Shown here piece by piece: positions 41,177 to 50,222 of a stretch of DNA of 64,000 nt. Source of the DNA: Streptomyces sp. 6-11-2 (lineage in GTDB: Bacteria; Actinomycetota; Actinomycetes; Streptomycetales; Streptomycetaceae); NCBI RefSeq assembly GCF_006540305.1, contig NZ_BJOR01000001.1:5022001-5086000 (forward strand). Direction: 5' to 3'. Positions within the stretch are counted from its first letter, which is position 1; every line of letters starts with the position of its first letter. The position numbers were made by a program, and so were the translations under genes. Below the pieces are notes generated by a model, which was not told the origin of the DNA, made no database searches, and was given only the letters and a program-made list of their open reading frames with translations.

Positions 41177-41201
41177 ACGGCGGGGCGTCCGCCGCTCGGC
41201 C

Positions 41202-41246
41202 GGTCGGAACCGGTCAGTTGGAACCGGCCGATCGGAACCGTTCCGG
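41202..41246. repeat. Three GGAACCG repeats, 14-bp period
   Basis: TYGGAACCG occurs at 41204, 41218 and 41232, exactly 14 bp apart, between the TetR stop and the 3' end of the split MazG-like gene. The last copy extends into CGGAAC-C-GTTCCG. It may serve as a transcription stop or a binding array. Confidence 0.5.
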
Positions 41247-41397
41247 TCAGGCCTCCCCGCCCGGCCCCAGTGACCGCTGCTTGACCCGCTCCAGATGCCG
41301 GGTGAAGACCTCCCGGGTCCGAGGGGTCAGGGTGCGCAGGGCCACCAGAGCGGTGATCACCACGTCGCACAGTTCCGCCTCGACGTCGTCCCACCTG
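41247..41397 (-). pseudogene. 3' fragment of the split MazG-like gene
   Basis: Minus-strand codons from the element edge to TGA 41247 read WDDVEAELCDVVITALVALR, TLTPRTREVFTRHLERVKQR and a short tail: the C-terminal 48 residues of an actinobacterial MazG-like protein. The N-terminal 74 codons lie beyond the transposon at 49202-49423. Joining the two across one CACCTG core gives ...GTTHR|WDDVEAEL... without any loss or gain. Confidence 0.92.
41392..41397. repeat. Left CACCTG core at the transposon boundary
   Basis: CACCTG directly precedes the left end of the element; the same six bases follow its right end at 49200-49205. In Tn554-type transposition a 6-bp core is exchanged at the crossover. 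One copy belongs to the original MazG-like gene. Confidence 0.85.
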
Positions 41398-41489
41398 TTA
41401 TCTGGGGCTGTGCTCAAATACATGCTGGTCAGAGTGCTCTATGGATGTAAGTTGCGTGAGGCACGTCTTCTCCTGGTGGCCGGAGGTCG

Positions 41490-42158
41490 TCACCGCTTGC
41501 TCCTGCGGAGGGCCAGCAAGCTCATTAGCTTCCGAGCGAATCGGTGCATGTGGGGGTCGAGGGCGCCCTCTGGCGTGGCGAGGACCTGGTCCAAGGAGAG
41601 CCACTTGATCGCGTCGAACTCTGCTTCGTCGAAGGAAGCGACCTGGCCCGCCTCTCCCCGCAGGACGTACCACAAGGACACGTCAGTGTGCTGCCCCTGG
41701 CCGCGAGTCCGTGTGACGGTGAGGAAGATCGGGCGGTCCCCGATGATCGAGGCGGGTACGGCTTCGATGTGCAGCTCTTCGCGGCATTCACGACGGACCG
41801 TGTGCCACGGATCCTCTGTCGGCTCGACGTGGCCGCCGTTGGGAAGCCACAAGCCGGCCTTGCGGTGGGCAACGAGTAGGAGCTCCTCGCGCGTCTCATC
41901 GAGCACGACGAAGTAGCTGACCAGGTGCTTCGCGGGGGTGGCAGGCTTCAGCGTCCTGTAGAGAGGCGCTCCGCTGGTGATCCACTCTGCTGTTGCAGCG
42001 AGGTGTGTCTGCTCCTGATCGTCCCAGGGTTCGATGCCGCTGAGCACCTGCATCAGCTGGGCGCGGAGTAGTTGGTCGGGGGCGTTTGAGGAATCCATGG
42101 TGACCACGGGCACATGATGGCAGGGGAGCCACAACCGCTCGCTGGCCAAGTCGGCCAT
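41490..42158 (-). CDS. NUDIX hydrolase
   Basis: 222 residues. The NUDIX box is GGHVEPTEDPWHTVRREC then REELHI, matching GX5EX7REUXEEXGU apart from the last Gly. The N-terminal about 70 residues include a hydrophilic helical segment (DQEQTHLAATAEWITSGA). It would cleave a nucleoside diphosphate linked to another group; the substrate is unknown. The ATG at 42158 lies only 2 bp from the IS982-type unit, and no ribosome site is seen, so the insertion may have removed its native promoter or the true N-terminus. Possible internal start: ATG 42098. Confidence 0.85.
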   Translation of the reverse strand: MADLASERLWLPCHHVPVVTMDSSNAPDQLLRAQLMQVLSGIEPWDDQEQTHLAATAEWITSGAPLYRTLKPATPAKHLVSYFVVLDETREELLLVAHRKAGLWLPNGGHVEPTEDPWHTVRRECREELHIEAVPASIIGDRPIFLTVTRTRGQGQHTDVSLWYVLRGEAGQVASFDEAEFDAIKWLSLDQVLATPEGALDPHMHRFARKLMSLLALRRSKR

Positions 42159-42279
42159 TGCTAGATGATCAATTCCAAGGGATGCCTGCAGGGGGTGTGG
42201 GGTGGGCGGCGGCCGAAGCCACCGCGAAACGGTCAGGCGGCGGGCTGCCGACCCTGGTTGTCAAGGTGGCAGTGGGCGG

Positions 42280-42669
42280 TCAGGCGTCAGGGTCGACTTC
42301 GGGGTGCGTGAACCGCACGGGCTTGCCCAGCGACCGGGCGTAGGCGATTTCGGCTCGGGTGCTGTCTCCGATGTAGTCGCCGACTACGAGCACCTCATCA
42401 GCGAGCCGGATCTTCGCTCGGTGCAGATCGTCGAGTCGAACCTTCAGCGCCTCAGCCTCGACAGGATCGGACCAAAGTTCGTGCGGCGACTTCATGTCAC
42501 AGCCCGGCTTGACGACAATCTTTCCGATTTTAGTCTCCCGCAGATCGGCCTCGGTCATCTCGGTCATGAAACGGGTGGAGCCGCAGATCACGACGATACG
42601 CGGGAGGCTCAGCTGCTTCTTCGCGTCGGCGAGCTTCTCCTCGGGGGTGAGCGGTTGCGGGTATGACAC
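42280..42669 (-). CDS. Small Rossmann-type protein, nucleoside 2-deoxyribosyltransferase-like
   Basis: 129 residues, GTG 42669 with GGAGG 7 nt upstream. PRIVVICGSTRFMTEMTEAD resembles the first strand-loop of nucleoside deoxyribosyltransferase/YtoQ folds, and ADEVLVVGDYIGDSTRAEIA the later active-site region, where a Glu follows a Ser (STRAEIAYA). KPVRFTHPEVDPD ends the protein. Similar small proteins are common in Streptomyces plasmids and prophages, but their activity is not established. Here it sits inside the inverted repeats of an IS982-type unit. Confidence 0.65.
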   Translation of the reverse strand: MSYPQPLTPEEKLADAKKQLSLPRIVVICGSTRFMTEMTEADLRETKIGKIVVKPGCDMKSPHELWSDPVEAEALKVRLDDLHRAKIRLADEVLVVGDYIGDSTRAEIAYARSLGKPVRFTHPEVDPDA

Positions 42670-42739
42670 TGGTTCCTCCTGGTGGTGTGGTCCAAGGGGT
42701 GCCTGCGGAGACGAGAACGAGGGTGTCCAAGATCGTCTT

Positions 42740-43654
42740 ATGGCGAACGACGTGGACACCCTCGCGACGCACTCTATGCGACGACCGATGACATGCTGAA
42801 AGCAGCATCCCGACCTGGCGCCGTGGTGCCCGCCGGTCGGCATTACGCCCCGCCTGAGCGATGCCGAACTGGTCACCCTCGCCATGATGCGGGCCATACT
42901 CGGCTTCACCTCCGAGGCCAAATGGCTCCGCCTTGCCCGTGCCCACCTGCGCCACCTCTTCCCCTGCCTGCCCCAGCAGCCCGGCTACAACAAGCGGCTG
43001 CGCAAGGCCGCCGGTCTGATGCGAAGCGTCAACCGGATCCTGGCCACCACTACCTCGGTGTGGAGCGACGACGTATGGGTCGTGGACTCCACCCCGGTGG
43101 AATGCGGCCGCTCCCGCGAGACCGTCAAACGCTCCGACCTGGCAGGCTGGGCCGAATACGGCTACTGCGCCAGCCACAGCCGCTTCTTCTGGGTCCTGCG
43201 CCTGCACCTGGCCTGCACCTCTCAGGGCCTGCCCATCGCCTTCGTGCTGACCGGAGCCAAGGCCGACGAACGCGAGACCCTCCTCGACCTCCTGGCCGCC
43301 GAATGCGAGCTTCTGCGAGAGCGCCCCCGACAGACTCTCATCGGCGACAAGAACTACTTCGGCCGTGGTTTCGAACGCGAACTGTCCGAGCATGAAGTCC
43401 AGTTGCTGCGGCCTGCCCGTAAAGGTGAACGGGAACGGCCTGGTGCGGCCCTGTTCAAGCCGCTGCGGCAGGTCATCGAATCGATCAGCGAGACCTTCAA
43501 GGGAGAGCTTGACCTCGAACGGCACCGAGGGCGCACACCCGGAGGTGTCATAGCCCGCGTCATGCAACGCGTCCTCGCGCTGACCGCCGCGATCTGGCAC
43601 AACGACGCGACCGGACAAACCGTCCTACGCTCACTGATCGCCTACGATCACTGA
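42740..43654 (+). pseudogene. IS982-family transposase with two frameshifts
   Basis: The start MANDVDTLAT at 42740 shifts near 42768 into ALYATTDDMLKAA and near 42840 back to LSDAELVTLAMMRAILGFTS, then reads to the stop. The C-terminal 257 residues are intact: VDSTPVECGRS (first Asp), LIGDKNYFGRGFE (second Asp), QVIESISETFKG (Glu) and the family end LTAAIWHND...RSLIAYDH. These define IS982. The two compensating shifts make it likely inactive unless translation slips. Confidence 0.85.
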
Positions 43655-43672
43655 CCCCTTGGAATAGATCAT

Positions 43673-44137
43673 CTAGCGGACGGGGCCCTGCTCGTCGATG
43701 ACGAAGTCAGGCGTTCCAAAGAACAGGAGGTCAGTGGTCACCGGTCCGTAGGCGATATTGAAGGTGTCCAGCCAGTAGGACCAGTCCCAGATCCCCAGTG
43801 CGCTGCTGAAGCGGTAGTTCAGCTGCCAACGGACCCACTGCCCAGGAACAAGTCGCACGGCTGGCAGGCGTCGTCGCCGCGGCGGCAGGGCAAACAAGGG
43901 CTGCACTCGCGGGAAGACTCGCAGGCGTCCTTCGGCTTCACAGAGTTGGACATCGACCTTGCCCAGGTCCTCAAGAGTGTCATGAGGCTGAAAACCGTCC
44001 TCCTCACGCATGCGCACCACGTGCGCCAGCGACCTCGATGCACGGGGAAGAGGAAACCCGATCGGGGCGGCATTCCTGCGCGCGGCACTCTCACCTCCCC
44101 GCGACTCCTTGGTCAACGAGATCCGTACCCATTGCAC
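43673..44137 (-). CDS. Unknown protein; stop codon lies in the IS inverted repeat
   Basis: 154 residues from GTG 44137, 18 bp after the gene above, so probably in one transcript. It contains an Arg/Pro-rich middle and an aromatic C-terminal half (GQWVRWQLNYRFSSALGIWD; SYWLDTFNIAYGPVTTDLLF). No family is recognised. Its TAG stop is the CTAG of the IS982-type end, so the natural 3' end may have been replaced by the insertion. Confidence 0.55.
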   Translation of the reverse strand: MQWVRISLTKESRGGESAARRNAAPIGFPLPRASRSLAHVVRMREEDGFQPHDTLEDLGKVDVQLCEAEGRLRVFPRVQPLFALPPRRRRLPAVRLVPGQWVRWQLNYRFSSALGIWDWSYWLDTFNIAYGPVTTDLLFFGTPDFVIDEQGPVR

Positions 44138-44155
44138 GGTGATCTCTACGCCGTC

Positions 44156-44695
44156 TCACTCCCCGCTCAGCTCGTCGAGGATCTCGCCGTAGTAGCGGTG
44201 CCGCTGGCTCAGTGTCTGGGCGACCTGCTCGTCTGTGACCTGGGACATCTTCCCGAGGTGCTCCAAGAGGTTGTCCTGCTGGGGATGGGCAGAGTCTTTG
44301 ACGTACTCCGTGGTGATGGACACCCCGGCGGCGAGCAGCAGGTGGTGGGGAAGTCCGCACCAGGTGTCGAAGCTCCGGCAGACGGCTTCCCACAGGAGCC
44401 AGACGTCCTCGACGTGGCGTTCTTCGGCGACCCGCAGGGCGGCGAGTTCGATGCTGTGGCTGAATCCCCAGGAATGCCCATGCCACCGTGTCTCCTGGAG
44501 CAGCAGGAACCGGGCGAAGTTGCCGTCTTCCTGGCGAGGATCCCGGACCAGGGCTTCGAGAACCTGCTGCCTGTCCTCCCAGCGGGCGTCCATGGGCAGC
44601 CCATCCTCAGTATGCTGCCCGTCGAACTCCAGAAGTTCCCATCGCTCGGCGTCCCCGCGCCACCAGGCCAGGTCGGGTATCGCGGGACGGCTCAT
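44156..44695 (-). CDS. Unknown soluble helical protein
   Basis: 179 residues from ATG 44695, chosen over an upstream start because GGAAG lies 8 nt before it. It is Trp- and Glu-rich (LAWWRGDAERWELLEFDG; RWHGHSWGFSHSIELAAL; EDVWLLWEAVCRSFDTWCG). A His/Trp cluster in the middle is notable, but no family is recognised. It is cargo of the Tn554-like element, directly downstream of tnpC on the same strand with a gap of 127 bp. Confidence 0.6.
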   Translation of the reverse strand: MSRPAIPDLAWWRGDAERWELLEFDGQHTEDGLPMDARWEDRQQVLEALVRDPRQEDGNFARFLLLQETRWHGHSWGFSHSIELAALRVAEERHVEDVWLLWEAVCRSFDTWCGLPHHLLLAAGVSITTEYVKDSAHPQQDNLLEHLGKMSQVTDEQVAQTLSQRHRYYGEILDELSGE

Positions 44696-44822
44696 TGGTG
44701 TGTCTTCCGTGCGGGGGAGGGGCGACGTCGTTGCTTGTGCGCGATCAGCGTCGGGAGGGAGACTCCAGCTTCGCATGGCTGCTGCTGGTTCTCGGCCGCC
44801 TGCGAGCCACCTGGGGGGCCGA

Positions 44823-45398
44823 TCACGTTGAGTCGCGGTTCTGGTCGCGCATCATGCTCCGCAGGGCCGTCCGGGCGGCAGCCAGGTCGTCCTGTGCCTC
44901 AGTCAAATCGTCCTGGAGGCCGTCGCGGTCTGCTTCGGCTCGGGCCAACTCCGCGGCGAGCCGTTGGTTGGCGATGGTCAGCTCCTGAACACGGGCGAGC
45001 AAGTCCTTGGCCGAGACAGCATCGACCCGCTCGCCGAGGCTGCGCTGCACCGCAGCCCTGAGCCGGTCACGTTCCTCGATGAGCGCCCGGACCTGGGCAC
45101 GCGCGAACTCGAGGTCGGTGGCCAGACTCGCGGTGCTGGCCGCCGACCCTTCCTTGCACTGCCGGGTTGAGGCGACCGCTTGGCCCGCGCGAGCTGCTTC
45201 GATGTGCTCGCGGACCCCTTCGGCGTAGACGAGCCAGTTCGAGACATCCGCTCTCTTGGCGACTGCGAGAAACGTGATCGGGTCGCCGTCGGCCTTCATC
45301 TCGTCCACTACAGCGAGCACCCTGGCGCGCTTCTCCCGGCTGGCCTTCTGGCGGGATTCAAGCAGCACTTGGGCTGGCGTGCGCGGCTCCTTGGTCAT
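44823..45398 (-). CDS. tnpC: TnpC-like coiled-coil transposition protein
   Basis: 191 residues; ATG 45398 overlaps the tnpB stop by 4 nt (ATGA). The N-terminal part (AQVLLESRQKASREKRARVL; FLAVAKRADVSNWLVYAEG) looks like a small helix-turn-helix. The rest is a long coiled coil (DLLARVQELTIANQRLAAEL; DDLTEAQDDLAAARTALRS). Tn554 TnpC is a similar small coiled-coil protein that raises transposition frequency and biases orientation. This one is longer (Tn554: about 125). Confidence 0.8.
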   Translation of the reverse strand: MTKEPRTPAQVLLESRQKASREKRARVLAVVDEMKADGDPITFLAVAKRADVSNWLVYAEGVREHIEAARAGQAVASTRQCKEGSAASTASLATDLEFARAQVRALIEERDRLRAAVQRSLGERVDAVSAKDLLARVQELTIANQRLAAELARAEADRDGLQDDLTEAQDDLAAARTALRSMMRDQNRDST

Positions 45399-47935
45399 GC
45401 GCCTACCTCCGGAGGACCGAATGCGGGCATACCCAGGCTCACAGCACTCTTCTGTCCGGCACGGAGCTTGCGCAGAACCTTGCTGGCCTCCTCGACCTCC
45501 TGCCGCATTTCATTGGGCATCGAGGCCAGCTTCTCCTTCTGGTTCTCGCGGACGGTCTGGAACGCAGTGATCTGATCGTCCAGGTTCCGGATGACGAACT
45601 CGGCTGCGCCCATAGCGGCAGCGACCTCGCGATCCGCCTTCAACGCACGGATGTGCTCCTCAACGGCGGGCAGGTAGGACGGATCGGGCCGGTAGGAGCC
45701 GCAGCCGGCGCACTGGAACCGGATGGGGCATGCCTTCCCACCTGCCTTCACGTTCGAGGGTTCGACGCAGTTGCCGAACGCCACTGCCACTGACCGCATC
45801 TCGTACGCCGTGCTCGACCCCATCGGAGCAGGCTTTCCGAAGCGGTCGGTGGTCAGGCTTTTGATGGTGTTGATGGCCTCCCGCTTCATTTTGATGCTCA
45901 CCTTGTAGTAAGACGCGGTGGTATCAGCGGACTTGTGGTCCATCAGATCTTGGAGGACGTGCTGCGGCATACCGGCGTCGGCGTACCGCTGACAGTACGT
46001 GTGGCGAAAGGCGTACGGGTAGATCAGTGACCGGTCGAAGGGCAGCGGCGTGCCGTCCGGGCCGAGTTCCTCAGAGTGGATCTCCGGGATTGCGTCGGCC
46101 CACTTCCGGATGGCAGCGCCGATTTTCTCGGTGGTCAGATGGCCATTGGCGCCGTTATTGGTGATAGCCGGGAACAGGAAGGGATGTGCCCGAGAAGGCA
46201 GGTCGAGGCCGTCTCGGATCGATGTCCACTGTTTGATCGCGGTGACAGTGTCCCTGTCGAGGGGGAGGCGTCTCCGGAGTCTTCCTGCCTTGGTGTTGTC
46301 CCAGATCAGCTGGTACTCGCCGCCGTCGTACTCCAAGCAGTCCCGGCCGAGAGAACCGATCTCGTTGGGGCGGCGTCCGGTGTCCCTCAGCAACACGTAG
46401 ACGGTCCGGAACATGGCCTGGACGCAGTGGGCCGGCATGTTGCCGTAGGTCGTGCGGGTACCGATGAGGGCGAGGTGCTTGTCTAGCTGGGTGATGACCG
46501 ACTCGGGGAGCGCCTTACCGATGTCGCCCTCATCGACTTTGTCCCGCTTGATGCGGTGCTCGTTCGGATGGAGGACGAATCGGGGAGAGAGTTCATCGAG
46601 GATTCCTTCGATGCGGCCGAATTCCAGGAGTTCTCCGAAGAGCTTCAGCAGCCGGGCTCGGGAGTCATTGCTGCGGGGCTCCCCGTCGCTGCGAAGGGCC
46701 ACCCTGAACTCGTTGACGACGGCGGTCATGTCCGCGAATCCCAATGCGGATGGGTCATCATCGGCGTCTCGCGTGGCGAGGGCCAGAGAGGCGATCCTGC
46801 ACGCCAACAGCCGATCACGAAGAGCCGAGGATCGTGGGGTGGTCGTCCGAGCCCAGTGCATGGCTACATCCCGAAGCCACGGCTGGAGGATGGGCGTGAA
46901 GTTGATCTCACCCTCTCGCGTGCGGAACCCGGTATGTGTGCGCGCAGGAAGAGGGGTGTCGAGTGCTTGCACGTCCCACACCGGTTTGGTGGTCTCGTTG
47001 ATTCCGCGGTACGCGTCGAGGCCCCTGGTGATGTCCCGCTTGACCTCCTTGATCAGAGACTGAGTGGCTGTGCACGTGGTGTCCGCGGGGCCAGGTGTGG
47101 CGCCAACCGCGAGAGCCACGGAGGGGATGCCGGTGAACAGCTTGACGATCTTCCTGACCAAGGTCGGACGGAGGACCTTGCCACGTGCGTCCCGCCTCTG
47201 GAGGGCGTACAGCAGTTCAAGGCGCGTCGTTCCCTCAAGGGGGACGAGGCTGAACTCGTTCTGGAGGAGGAACGGCACTCGTGCCTCGGTCCACTTGGCG
47301 AGGTCCTCGCTGCTGTCCCGGCCGTTCTCGCGACTGTATGCCGTCCACAGGTTGCGGTGTTGGTAGCAGAGATGCGTCGGGAGGCTTTCCTCGCTTCGAC
47401 ATCCTCGAACCGCGCAGAGCTGCAGCCCGGCAAACGGCTCCTGGGCGGTAGCCCAGGTTTCGCGCTCAACTGCGTAGCGGCTGATCCGAGCGTCGCTGCC
47501 GTAGGTCCTACGTACATGATCGCGCCAGATCGAATAGTGGCTGTGACAGAGCCGTCCTTTGATCCCGTCCCGTCCGCAAGCGGGGACAGCGCACCGCGCA
47601 GGCGTGGCGTGGAACCGCCGGTTGCGTAGTGGGACGAAGGCCTGGTCGAACTCTGATGCAGTCAGTTTCGACTTGCGATGATCGATGCTGCAGCTTCCGC
47701 AGTACATCGGGCCCTCGGTCGGGGAGTTGCAGCGCGGATGACGGCACCGTCGAGATCCGGTGAGCGGGTTCTCCGGGTCTCCGACGAACAGCAGATCATG
47801 AAGATGCCATTCCCCAGGCCGCCATTTCATGTCGACGGCATCCTGAAGCCAGGCGTTCCAGGACCGGAGATGGTGATCATCAGTCGGTAGAGTTGCGACG
47901 CCTGCGTCCCTCGACAAGCCAGCCCTGACCGTCAC
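45395..47935 (-). CDS. tnpB: TnpB-like tyrosine recombinase with three zinc-finger-like repeats
   Basis: 846 residues, longer than Tn554 TnpB (about 630). GTG 47935 overlaps the tnpA stop (GTGA). Near the N-terminus are three repeats of CX4CX9-10CX2(C/H): Cys64-69-79-82, Cys115-120-130 with His133, and Cys174-179-190 with His193. The recombinase domain holds Arg521/522 (DTGRRPNEIG), FRHTYCQRYADAG with Arg644 and His645, His667 (LMDHKS) and Tyr676 or 677. A further Cys cluster (CPIRFQCAGCGSYRPDPS) and a coiled coil end the protein. It should act with TnpA in excision and integration. Confidence 0.9.
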   Translation of the reverse strand: MTVRAGLSRDAGVATLPTDDHHLRSWNAWLQDAVDMKWRPGEWHLHDLLFVGDPENPLTGSRRCRHPRCNSPTEGPMYCGSCSIDHRKSKLTASEFDQAFVPLRNRRFHATPARCAVPACGRDGIKGRLCHSHYSIWRDHVRRTYGSDARISRYAVERETWATAQEPFAGLQLCAVRGCRSEESLPTHLCYQHRNLWTAYSRENGRDSSEDLAKWTEARVPFLLQNEFSLVPLEGTTRLELLYALQRRDARGKVLRPTLVRKIVKLFTGIPSVALAVGATPGPADTTCTATQSLIKEVKRDITRGLDAYRGINETTKPVWDVQALDTPLPARTHTGFRTREGEINFTPILQPWLRDVAMHWARTTTPRSSALRDRLLACRIASLALATRDADDDPSALGFADMTAVVNEFRVALRSDGEPRSNDSRARLLKLFGELLEFGRIEGILDELSPRFVLHPNEHRIKRDKVDEGDIGKALPESVITQLDKHLALIGTRTTYGNMPAHCVQAMFRTVYVLLRDTGRRPNEIGSLGRDCLEYDGGEYQLIWDNTKAGRLRRRLPLDRDTVTAIKQWTSIRDGLDLPSRAHPFLFPAITNNGANGHLTTEKIGAAIRKWADAIPEIHSEELGPDGTPLPFDRSLIYPYAFRHTYCQRYADAGMPQHVLQDLMDHKSADTTASYYKVSIKMKREAINTIKSLTTDRFGKPAPMGSSTAYEMRSVAVAFGNCVEPSNVKAGGKACPIRFQCAGCGSYRPDPSYLPAVEEHIRALKADREVAAAMGAAEFVIRNLDDQITAFQTVRENQKEKLASMPNEMRQEVEEASKVLRKLRAGQKSAVSLGMPAFGPPEVGA

Positions 47936-49164
47936 CGCTGTGCGGCCCTTCGCATCTCCGAGACCGCCGTCACGGCGTCACGCTTTTCCTGGTCGCTGGC
48001 GTGCAGGTAGACCTCCATGGACTGCTCGCTGACATGACCGAGCAGGTTCTGCACCACGTGTCGCTGCTTGCCTTGGCGAATCCACCGGGTCGCCGCCGAG
48101 TGCCGGAACATGTGTGGCCGGGTGGTAAAGCCCGCCCGCTTGGCGAGCCGCACGAACAGGTCGTACGTGGATTGGTATTTCATCGGCGAGCCCAGGGGGC
48201 CACGGAAAAGGTTGACGAACGCCAAGTCGCAGGATGCGGCCTCGGGCACGGCGTCCCGCTCCCACTGGTATTCGGCGTAGAGACCGACCAGGTCGTTGCT
48301 GACGGGAATCGATCGAGGCTGCCGGGACTTGGCCAGGGCTCCATTGGAGTTCTGCCGCCGGCGCACATGGATGTGAGGCCCGGCTGTGGGACATCCCAGC
48401 GTCGTCGAGCTCGACAGGAGGTGCATGTCCTCCCGTCGCAAGCCCAGGGCTTCTCCGATGCGAACACCTGTTTCTGCAAGGAGGGTTACGAGGAAACGGT
48501 CGCGAGCATGGCTCGTGAGGTCGATGATGTGGAGGATCTGCTCGTCGGTCAGGTACTCGTAGCCGGAGACCGCGACTTTGAACTTCAGCTTCCGTGCGCG
48601 GATCGTGCGGTACTGGTCATCCTCGCCCGTGTTGTACCCAGTCGGCATGTGATGCAGAAGCCTCGGCTCGGTCAGCAGGGCGATCAGGTCTGCGGCGACC
48701 CACCCGTGCAGGGAGCAGTGCCTGAGGAACTGGCACGAGGTGGTCATGATCGCGTTCGCAGTCTTCTTGCTGCGGTGCCGAGGTTCGGCGAGCACCCTCT
48801 GACTCCTGGCCGGAAGCGGTTCGTCAACCAGCCAGTGCAGGAACTTGGCAAGCTGCACGATGGTGGGTGCCGACCAGCAGATGCCGAACTCTGCACAGTA
48901 GGACAGGTACAGCGCCACCCGGCCCGCGTAGCTGCGCAGTGTATTGACCGATGCGTCCTCCTGGGAGGCCAGTGCCGTCAGGTACGAAGTCGCCTCAGGG
49001 TGGAGCTCGTAGTCCTGGCTAATGACGATCCACGTCGTTGCCCCGTCGCCGGGCCTGATGGCCTTCTCGGCTCGGTAGGCGCGGGGCTCGGAAGAGAGTC
49101 CGGGTAACGTCACTGAAGTCCCCCAAGATAGTTGTCTGTCACGTAGAGAACGCGCAAACGTCAC
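47932..49164 (-). CDS. tnpA: TnpA-like tyrosine recombinase
   Basis: 410 residues from GTG 49164. A SAM-like core-binding domain (about 55-175) includes DASVNTLRSYAGRVALYLSY. The catalytic set is complete: Arg235 (AETGVRIGEALGL), HMFRHSAATRW with His351 and Arg354, His377 (NLLGHVSE) and the nucleophile Tyr386 (MEVYLH). It starts 35 bp inside the right end of the element, so no promoter of ordinary size fits between; read-through from the split MazG-like gene, on the same strand 22 bp upstream, is the likely source of its mRNA. Confidence 0.92.
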   Translation of the reverse strand: MTFARSLRDRQLSWGTSVTLPGLSSEPRAYRAEKAIRPGDGATTWIVISQDYELHPEATSYLTALASQEDASVNTLRSYAGRVALYLSYCAEFGICWSAPTIVQLAKFLHWLVDEPLPARSQRVLAEPRHRSKKTANAIMTTSCQFLRHCSLHGWVAADLIALLTEPRLLHHMPTGYNTGEDDQYRTIRARKLKFKVAVSGYEYLTDEQILHIIDLTSHARDRFLVTLLAETGVRIGEALGLRREDMHLLSSSTTLGCPTAGPHIHVRRRQNSNGALAKSRQPRSIPVSNDLVGLYAEYQWERDAVPEAASCDLAFVNLFRGPLGSPMKYQSTYDLFVRLAKRAGFTTRPHMFRHSAATRWIRQGKQRHVVQNLLGHVSEQSMEVYLHASDQEKRDAVTAVSEMRRAAQR

Positions 49165-49186
49165 TTAGGTAACTGAACTTCAGGAC

Positions 49187-49423
49187 TTACTGGAGATAAC
49201 ACCTGTGGGTGGTGCCCTTGCGCGGGTTCCGGCCGGTCGCGCCGATCACCGCCTGGGCGACCTCGCCGACCTCCTCCGACAGCTTCAGGACCCGGGGCAG
49301 TACCGCCGCCTCCCGGCCCTCGTCGAGGGGACGGTGCCCGTCCAGCCAGGCCCACAGGTCGTCGACGGTGGACCAGATGTCCTCGGGCGGTGCCGGCGCG
49401 GTGCCGGGGTGCTGATCGCTCAT
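49187..49423 (-). pseudogene. 5' fragment of the split MazG-like gene
   Basis: ATG 49423 opens EDIWSTVDDLWAWLDGHRPL and LKLSEEVGEVAQAVIGATGR, the MazG-type helix pair with the metal-binding EEVGE motif. At codon 74 the transposon core is reached, and four foreign codons (CYLQ) then a stop follow. The 48 missing residues lie at 41247-41393. The intact protein (122 residues) would hydrolyse or sense nucleoside triphosphates; the two ligand halves are now separate, so the function is lost. Confidence 0.92.
49200..49205. repeat. Right CACCTG core at the transposon boundary
   Basis: This is the second copy of the 6-bp core that flanks the Tn554-like element. Excision between the two copies would restore the MazG-like gene. 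Confidence 0.85.
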
Positions 49424-49533: not shown

Positions 49534-50079
49534 CTACTCCTCGAAAAGCGCCTCCTGCTCCCCCTCCTTCTCCCTGCGGAGCCGCCGCACCCGCGTGCCC
49601 AGGACCACGGACGTCGCCGCGGCCACCGTCGCGAACGCCACCGGGACCATCCAGCCGCGGTTGACGGTGTGTCCGAGGGCGTGGTCCACGGAGAGCCGGC
49701 CGGGGCCCGTGATCGCCAGGCCCGCGGAGGTCAGACCCAGCGAGGCGGCGTACTCGTAGCCGCCGCTCTGGGCGAAGAAGCCGCTGGGCGCGTGCACCGC
49801 CGCCGCACCCGCCATCGCGCCGGCCGCAGCCGCGCCCGCCGCCGGGGTCGCCAGGCCCATGGCCAGCAGCAGACCGCCGCCGGCCTCCGACAGCCCGGCC
49901 GCCATCGCGCTCGCCTTCCCCGGCCGGTATCCCACGGACTCCATGAACCGCCCGGTCCCCTCGATCCCGCCCCCGCCGAACCAACCCAGCAGCTTCTGCG
50001 CGCCGTGCGCGGCCAGCACACTGCCGGTACCCAGCCGGAGCAGCAGCAGGCCCAGATCGCGTCGGTCGTAACAGGTCAC
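49534..50079 (-). CDS. DoxX-family membrane protein
   Basis: 181 residues from GTG 50079, chosen for the GGGGAG upstream; an earlier start at 50154 adds 25 residues without a ribosome site. The four-helix DoxX pattern is clear: LGLLLLRLGTGSVLAAHGAQ KLLGWFGG at the start and VGYRPGKASAMAAGLSEAGG in helix 2. A basic and acidic tail (RVRRLRREKEGEQEALFEE) follows a fifth hydrophobic segment. DoxX proteins join thiosulfate:quinone oxidoreductases or redox-balance complexes; the exact role here is not shown. Confidence 0.8.
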   Translation of the reverse strand: MTCYDRRDLGLLLLRLGTGSVLAAHGAQKLLGWFGGGGIEGTGRFMESVGYRPGKASAMAAGLSEAGGGLLLAMGLATPAAGAAAAGAMAGAAAVHAPSGFFAQSGGYEYAASLGLTSAGLAITGPGRLSVDHALGHTVNRGWMVPVAFATVAAATSVVLGTRVRRLRREKEGEQEALFEE

Positions 50080-50222
50080 GGTGACTCCCCAGGCAGACGG
50101 CGGAAGAACAGCGGCATCGGACTCTTTCCGGGTGTCCACCGTCGCACCGGCCACGCCCGCCGGGCCCGTCCTGCGCTCCGTTCGGGTGGCGGGGTCCGGG
50201 GACCGGTGTGACGCTGGCCGAC

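Follow-up and report, generated by a model that had tools for sequence, protein, structure and literature searches.

The window analysed here, a 64-kilobase (kb) stretch of the genome of Streptomyces sp. 6-11-2, contains a mazG-like gene that is split at codon 74 by a transposon which, judged by the homology of its recombinases, is a member of the Tn554 family. An insertion of this kind had been proposed from the letters of the DNA (hereafter the sequence-only reading) and is borne out by the junctions, by relatives of the element that lie in mazG-like genes, by a sub-threshold domain match and by homology to Tn554. The argument is carried by the following features (coordinates are those of the window; aa, amino acids; E, expectation value):

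41247 to 41393, minus strand: 3' part of the mazG-like gene, codons 75-122 plus stop, with the ExxD motif (residues 81-84), from the joined frame
41392 to 41397, no strand: far-end hexamer, CACCTG on the plus strand and CAGGTG in mazG sense; under Tn554's rule (see below) brought from the previous site
41398 to 49199, minus strand: Tn554-family transposon (by homology), tnpA end at 49199 (TTATCT inward on the minus strand), far end at 41398
44823 to 45398, minus strand: tnpC, 191 aa, DUF6262, 28% identity to Tn554 TnpC over 123 columns
45395 to 47935, minus strand: tnpB, long tyrosine recombinase, 846 aa, Phage_integrase at residues 506-680, 20% identity to Tn554 TnpB
47932 to 49164, minus strand: tnpA, tyrosine recombinase, 410 aa, Phage_integrase E 1.7e-25, 29% identity to Tn554 TnpA
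49200 to 49205, no strand: tnpA-end hexamer, CACCTG on the plus strand and CAGGTG in mazG sense; under Tn554's rule the target's own
49202 to 49423, minus strand: 5' part of the mazG-like gene, codons 1-74, with the EE motif (residues 50-51), from the joined frame
49534 to 50154, minus strand: neighbouring open reading frame (ORF), presumably DoxX-like

The element proper (41398-49199, 7802 base pairs, bp) carries TTATCT at one end and AGATAA at the other on the plus strand, and each of the two motifs (starting at 41398 and 49194, respectively) occurs a single time within 41200-49400; after subtraction of a nested insertion sequence and one CTAG its length is 6290 bp. These inner ends and the CACCTG flanks lie where the sequence-only reading had placed them. 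We likewise recover the open frame of 122 residues that it obtained by joining the flanks over one CACCTG, as well as the 4-nucleotide overlaps of tnpA-tnpB-tnpC (shared positions 47932-47935 and 45395-45398). Since CACCTG or CAGGTG occurs 56 times in the window, the hexamer alone is little proof; the proof of the insertion is comparative and consists of three related elements at the same mazG codon together with 30 uninterrupted loci.

With regard to the family, the gene arrangement agrees with that of Tn554 (tnpA-tnpB-tnpC, TnpB being long), and BLASTP comparison with the Tn554-annotated genes of one plasmid record (OL539428.1) gave 28.8% identity for TnpA (E 6.7e-42), 20.1% for TnpB (3.2e-11) and 27.6% for TnpC (7.6e-11). 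The R...HxxR...Y residues, which have catalytic roles in tyrosine recombinases, are found at positions 233, 351, 374 and 385 of TnpA and 520, 641, 664 and 675 of TnpB. Of 7993 candidates scored in a protein search with TnpA, 545 had E up to 1e-100, and the best 120 were listed. The Tn554 copy of the plasmid record adjoins a UPF0758 gene, which we take to be of the RadC family. That record (L111) is labelled E. coli and carries dihydrofolate synthase and YfhO-like genes beside the transposon and UPF0758; its content looks Gram-positive, and it is possibly mislabelled or chimeric.

The joined host protein matches the MazG domain PF03819 with E 5e-4 and 20.7 bits, below the 22-bit Pfam cut-off, and the MazG-like family phrog_1247 with E 1.5e-4. 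EE and ExxD are the metal-binding motifs of MazG-like enzymes, the fold of which is known. Because the break at codon 74 falls between the two motifs and separates them, neither half would be expected to work alone, and as long as the element stays in place the host most likely lacks an active form of this protein.

Intact counterparts, which the sequence-only reading had suggested looking for in other Streptomyces, were found. When 246 genomes of the genus were searched at protein level for the mazG-like gene, 207 gave a match with E of 1e-3 or better. The comparison set consists of 30 loci, namely 29 loci of other genomes among 30 fetched and a partial match covering residues 45-116 only (L065), which was fetched separately; all 30 are uninterrupted at the insertion point. 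A relative of the DoxX-like gene is found near mazG in 28 of 29 uninterrupted loci, which identifies them as the same locus as that of the window; it is missing in L024 and also in L065. The native hexamer is CACCTG at 19 of the 30 loci and takes six other forms at the remaining 11. Codon 74 encodes Thr (25 loci), Ser (4) or Glu (1) and in no case Arg, the residue (AGG) of the joined window gene. A search for the Arg-codon pattern in 392 Streptomyces genomes, in which diverged mazG genes are missed by the pattern, yielded 22 matches, all of them with Ser (21 AGC, 1 AGT). The claim that the empty site can be rebuilt exactly thus applies to the reading frame, whereas the six central bases were probably different, as Arg is absent from the 30 comparison loci.

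Related elements and their edge hexamers

Relatives of TnpB at E 1e-80 or better are present in 39 of the 392 genomes of the genus, the window's own included. Three of these (G275, G172 and G040; TnpA 91-93% and TnpB 84-85% identical) belong to elements that each split a mazG-like gene at the codon used in the window, so that the same codon is occupied in four of four members of this clade. G040 is inserted in reversed orientation (1 of 4), the window, G275 and G172 are forward. The target in G172 is a more distant mazG-like gene, with 47% identity in the 5' part and a DoxX-like relative about 4 kb away. Element DNA within the clade is 89-94% identical, far more alike than the DoxX-like neighbour, the protein of which is 67-80% identical to that of the window in the same three hosts; this argues for separate insertions of an element that probably spread horizontally.

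In Tn554 and in strand-biased circularizing elements (SEs), the left-end hexamer is that of the target and the right-end hexamer reproduces the left flank of the preceding site (PMC10214605, PMC12486829). G275 and G172 carry CACCTG at both ends. G040, in mazG sense, shows the native CACCTG beside tnpA, whereas its far end reads CAGGTG, in agreement with Tn554's rule, the carried CACCTG now standing backwards at the far end.

Flanks on the tnpA side were read at 59 loci, corresponding to 52 distinct places with the window counted once. TTATCT, TTATCC or ATATCT occurs within 260 bp around the tnpA start at 54 of the 59 loci (47 distinct places), a count made without a chance control. Among these, the mazG site is confined to the four clade elements. 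A DUF4244 gene (PF14029) is occupied at one position by eleven distinct elements, of which seven are inserted forward and four in reverse; for several of the forward ones the match spans just 12 residues and is supported by its exact position, and Pfam placed two of three flanks or joins at this site above its cut-off and one just under. The DUF4244 gene is thus seen as a repeated insertion site, used in both directions, in Streptomycetaceae (L036, L038, L040, L041, L044, L049, L120, L121, L126, L127 and L128).

Both ends were found in nine of the eleven DUF4244 elements (forward G255, G068, G296, G264 and G469; reversed G289, G332, G493 and G557), and in all nine the edge hexamers differ. Six elements at other sites could be assigned both ends, with different hexamers in L073, L076, L077, L082 and a second G493 copy and equal ones in L078, which brings unequal pairs to 14 of 15 elements outside mazG. 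The boundaries of L073 and L078 are supported by a Pfam match across the join and those of the second G493 copy by an open frame across it. Placed into its gene, the foreign hexamer would give a plausible protein variant in L069 (G255; MGTVAAV for MGIIAAV) and in L073 (GDTVMV for GDHVMV), as if it came from another copy of the same gene; that of L074 (G068) would not give a plausible variant of the same protein.

The two G493 copies, 7774 bp each, are letter-for-letter identical with exchanged hexamers: on contig C1 (L152) the tnpA end is flanked by CGATGG and the far end by ATTGAA, and the copy on the 325-kb contig C2 (L153) shows the reverse arrangement. Such reciprocal hexamers fit a movement to the other replicon and back. 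Taken together, the flanks indicate that the group follows the hexamer-transfer rule, with no target duplication; the equal pair of the window is by itself uninformative.

Three further observations concern individual loci. The copies L076 and L077 (G370, contig C9) are 99.9% identical; they have CGCCAG in common as far hexamer but differ in the hexamer at the tnpA end, as would be expected of two descendants of a single lost donor. The L073 element (G067) lies within a ligA-like gene. A ligA gene is also annotated on an Embleya plasmid (L112), about 80 bp away from the start of a related tnpA.

Origin of the hexamers in the window

We assign a probability of about 0.86 to the explanation as a whole, namely that the window carries a transposon of a Streptomyces branch of the Tn554 family, with hexamer transfer, descent from a reversed insertion and, as attachment site, the stretch of mazG-like genes encoding N-P-R-K-G-x-x-H-x-W. 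TnpA and TnpB would cut at the hexamer, and the element would close into a circle carrying the hexamer from its tnpA end. Upon insertion of the circle into another mazG site, the target's own hexamer would stay at the tnpA end and the travelling one would come to lie at the far end. As the hexamer is nearly symmetric (CA..TG), insertion in reversed direction would also be permitted, whereupon CACCTG would be read as CAGGTG.

The window element is inserted forward and has CAGGTG in mazG sense at both ends, that is, the reverse complement of the usual CACCTG (Thr). At the far end this fits a donor of the reversed G040 type. Because the tnpA end gives Arg where the comparison loci have none, we infer that a passage through a reversed, G040-like insertion has probably inverted the hexamer. 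The two CAGGTG copies would then reflect descent from such an insertion plus one more step, for which two options may be considered: either an earlier reversed insertion was excised and left the turned CAGGTG behind, or the junction held a CACCTG/CAGGTG mismatch, which repair resolved in favour of the donor sequence.

Several points weigh against this explanation. The specificity for mazG is derived from four insertions, four being the number of clade elements known, and the MazG assignment is just short of the Pfam cut-off (20.7 vs. 22 bits). Among the elements used to establish hexamer transfer, the far boundary of L076, L077 and L082 is set by the end motif alone. The tnpA-end hexamer should be native, yet CAGGTG occurs at 0 of 30 loci and Arg in none of the matches from 392 genomes to a pattern that misses diverged genes; its presence there would require the extra, hypothetical step. 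Finally, the quartet support for a G040-like parent is mixed, the window sharing 67 element sites with G040, 48 with G172 and 26 with G275.

The main rival to a turned-over hexamer is a mazG gene that already had Arg (CAGGTG) at codon 74 in this lineage, e.g., derived from CAGCTG (Ser), and that received the element from a CAGGTG donor, so that nothing was turned over. Under the transfer rule the tnpA-end hexamer would simply be that of the target, and CAGCTG, frequent as a native hexamer in the pattern search described above, is one base away from CAGGTG. On the other hand, neither the 30 loci nor the pattern matches include the postulated Arg, and CAGGTG at the far end still requires a donor of that kind, most simply a reversed G040-like insertion. 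We consider a native AGG possible but doubtful.

More generally, it is about as likely as not that Tn554-like elements of Streptomycetaceae, by a six-base record of the previous home and by insertion in either orientation, make hop histories readable from genomes alone. In this reading the G493 element would have made a round trip between two replicons, and that of the window would have gone through a reversed mazG insertion, codon 74 being turned from Thr or Ser into Arg when the element was excised or the junction repaired.

Cargo, remaining alternatives and known relatives

Beyond tnpC the element carries the following genes and insertions:

41490 to 42158, minus strand: NUDIX hydrolase, 222 aa, cargo present in all four mazG-clade elements
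42165 to 43672, no strand: 1508-bp nested insertion sequence with imperfect inverted ends, bordered by CTAG at 42161-42164 and 43673-43676
42280 to 42921, minus strand: passenger ORF of the insertion sequence, weak nucleoside deoxyribosyltransferase match (phrog_355, E 0.035)
42884 to 43654, plus strand: DDE transposase ORF of the insertion sequence (DDE_Tnp_1, domain match)
43673 to 44137, minus strand: cargo ORF h5, 154 aa (157 aa in the three relatives)
44156 to 44695, minus strand: cargo ORF h4, 179 aa if counted from the start that the relatives use, predicted to be largely helical (pLDDT 91)

Like the NUDIX gene, h4 and h5 lie on the tnp strand in all four mazG-clade elements. Neither has a family match in Pfam, NCBIfam, PHROGs or PADLOC. 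Of 185 candidates in a search with h4, 54 proteins reached E 1e-3 or better, the named ones being actinobacterial and without a precomputed Pfam domain, and its confidently predicted, mostly helical model gave no specific structural match. The nested insertion sequence between h5 and the NUDIX gene is found in the window only, none of the three relatives having it; the rest of the genome contains two places that match just its last 958 bp (83%, without the passenger part) and one that matches a 127-bp piece. Where the sequence-only reading saw a NUDIX hydrolase and unknown genes as cargo, the former is upheld, while the unknown part consists in part of this insertion sequence with its own passenger ORF.

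The cargo bears on a further explanation, in which the insertion would be a regulated switch that restores mazG upon excision, with the NUDIX hydrolase substituting for the lost pyrophosphohydrolase in the meantime. The open joined frame and the presence of the NUDIX gene in all four elements speak for it. However, the restored gene would have Arg at codon 74, and the NUDIX gene of G040 has a frame break near its C-terminus; we regard the idea as very unlikely. Ordinary target-site duplication, suggested by the identical copies in the window, G275, G172 and one of the 15 elements outside mazG (L078), is hardly tenable in view of the inverse flanks of G040 (CAGGTG/CACCTG), the different hexamers of the other 14 with those of G493 exchanged, and a core element without a DDE transposase of its own. 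Equally improbable is an RIT element or another tyrosine-recombinase island (GInt, SE), with which the element shares overlapping recombinase genes and, in the case of SEs, a 6-bp footprint (PMC10214605), as the element has only two recombinases, its third protein having no Phage_integrase match (RIT elements have three tyrosine recombinases) and matching DUF6262 and Tn554 TnpC, as no fourth SE/GInt-type core gene (Tfp/GinC) was recognised among h4, h5 and the NUDIX gene by Pfam, NCBIfam, PHROGs and PADLOC profile scans, and as the gene order with a long TnpB is that of Tn554.

Tn554 inserts almost always in one orientation, unlike the present branch with its frequent reversed insertions (1 of 4 in mazG, 4 of 11 in DUF4244). 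It further differs in host phylum, in its radC instead of a mazG-like target and in the length of TnpB (630 vs. 846 aa here), and no resistance gene was recognised in the window element. Shared with Tn554 of Staphylococcus and Enterococcus are the gene order, three homologous proteins, a fixed site inside a chromosomal gene and the 6-bp hexamer moved from the donor to the far end (PMC10214605, PMC12486829). SEs likewise move a 6-bp fingerprint from the donor's left flank to the right flank of the new site (PMC10214605), yet have four core genes including tfp and occur in Gammaproteobacteria. Tn552-II/Tn553 of Staphylococcus form a circle with mainly the left-hand spacer (PMC12486829), similar to the circle proposed for the present element, and differ in a 7-bp att, a yolD-like target and blaZ as cargo. 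A Tn554-related class from Streptomyces, Rhodococcus and Mycobacterium with a long and a short tyrosine recombinase and often a TnpC homologue was described in 2012 (PMC3414803); it agrees with the present element in the recombinase pair and the TnpC homologue, while the passages compared name no targets, ends or hexamers of its actinobacterial elements. A mazG target for such elements was found in no paper by our literature search. That the element is a new representative of an already known class is well supported; its clade occurs in both orientations, and the donor hexamers can be read.

Hexamer transfer, described for Staphylococcus and Enterococcus, is thereby extended to actinobacteria by natural evidence, and Streptomyces hosts are offered in which excision, circle formation and the strand used could be tested. 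The mazG-like and DUF4244 sites, each occupied in both directions, would provide two natural series for the choice of site and orientation by TnpA, TnpB and TnpC.
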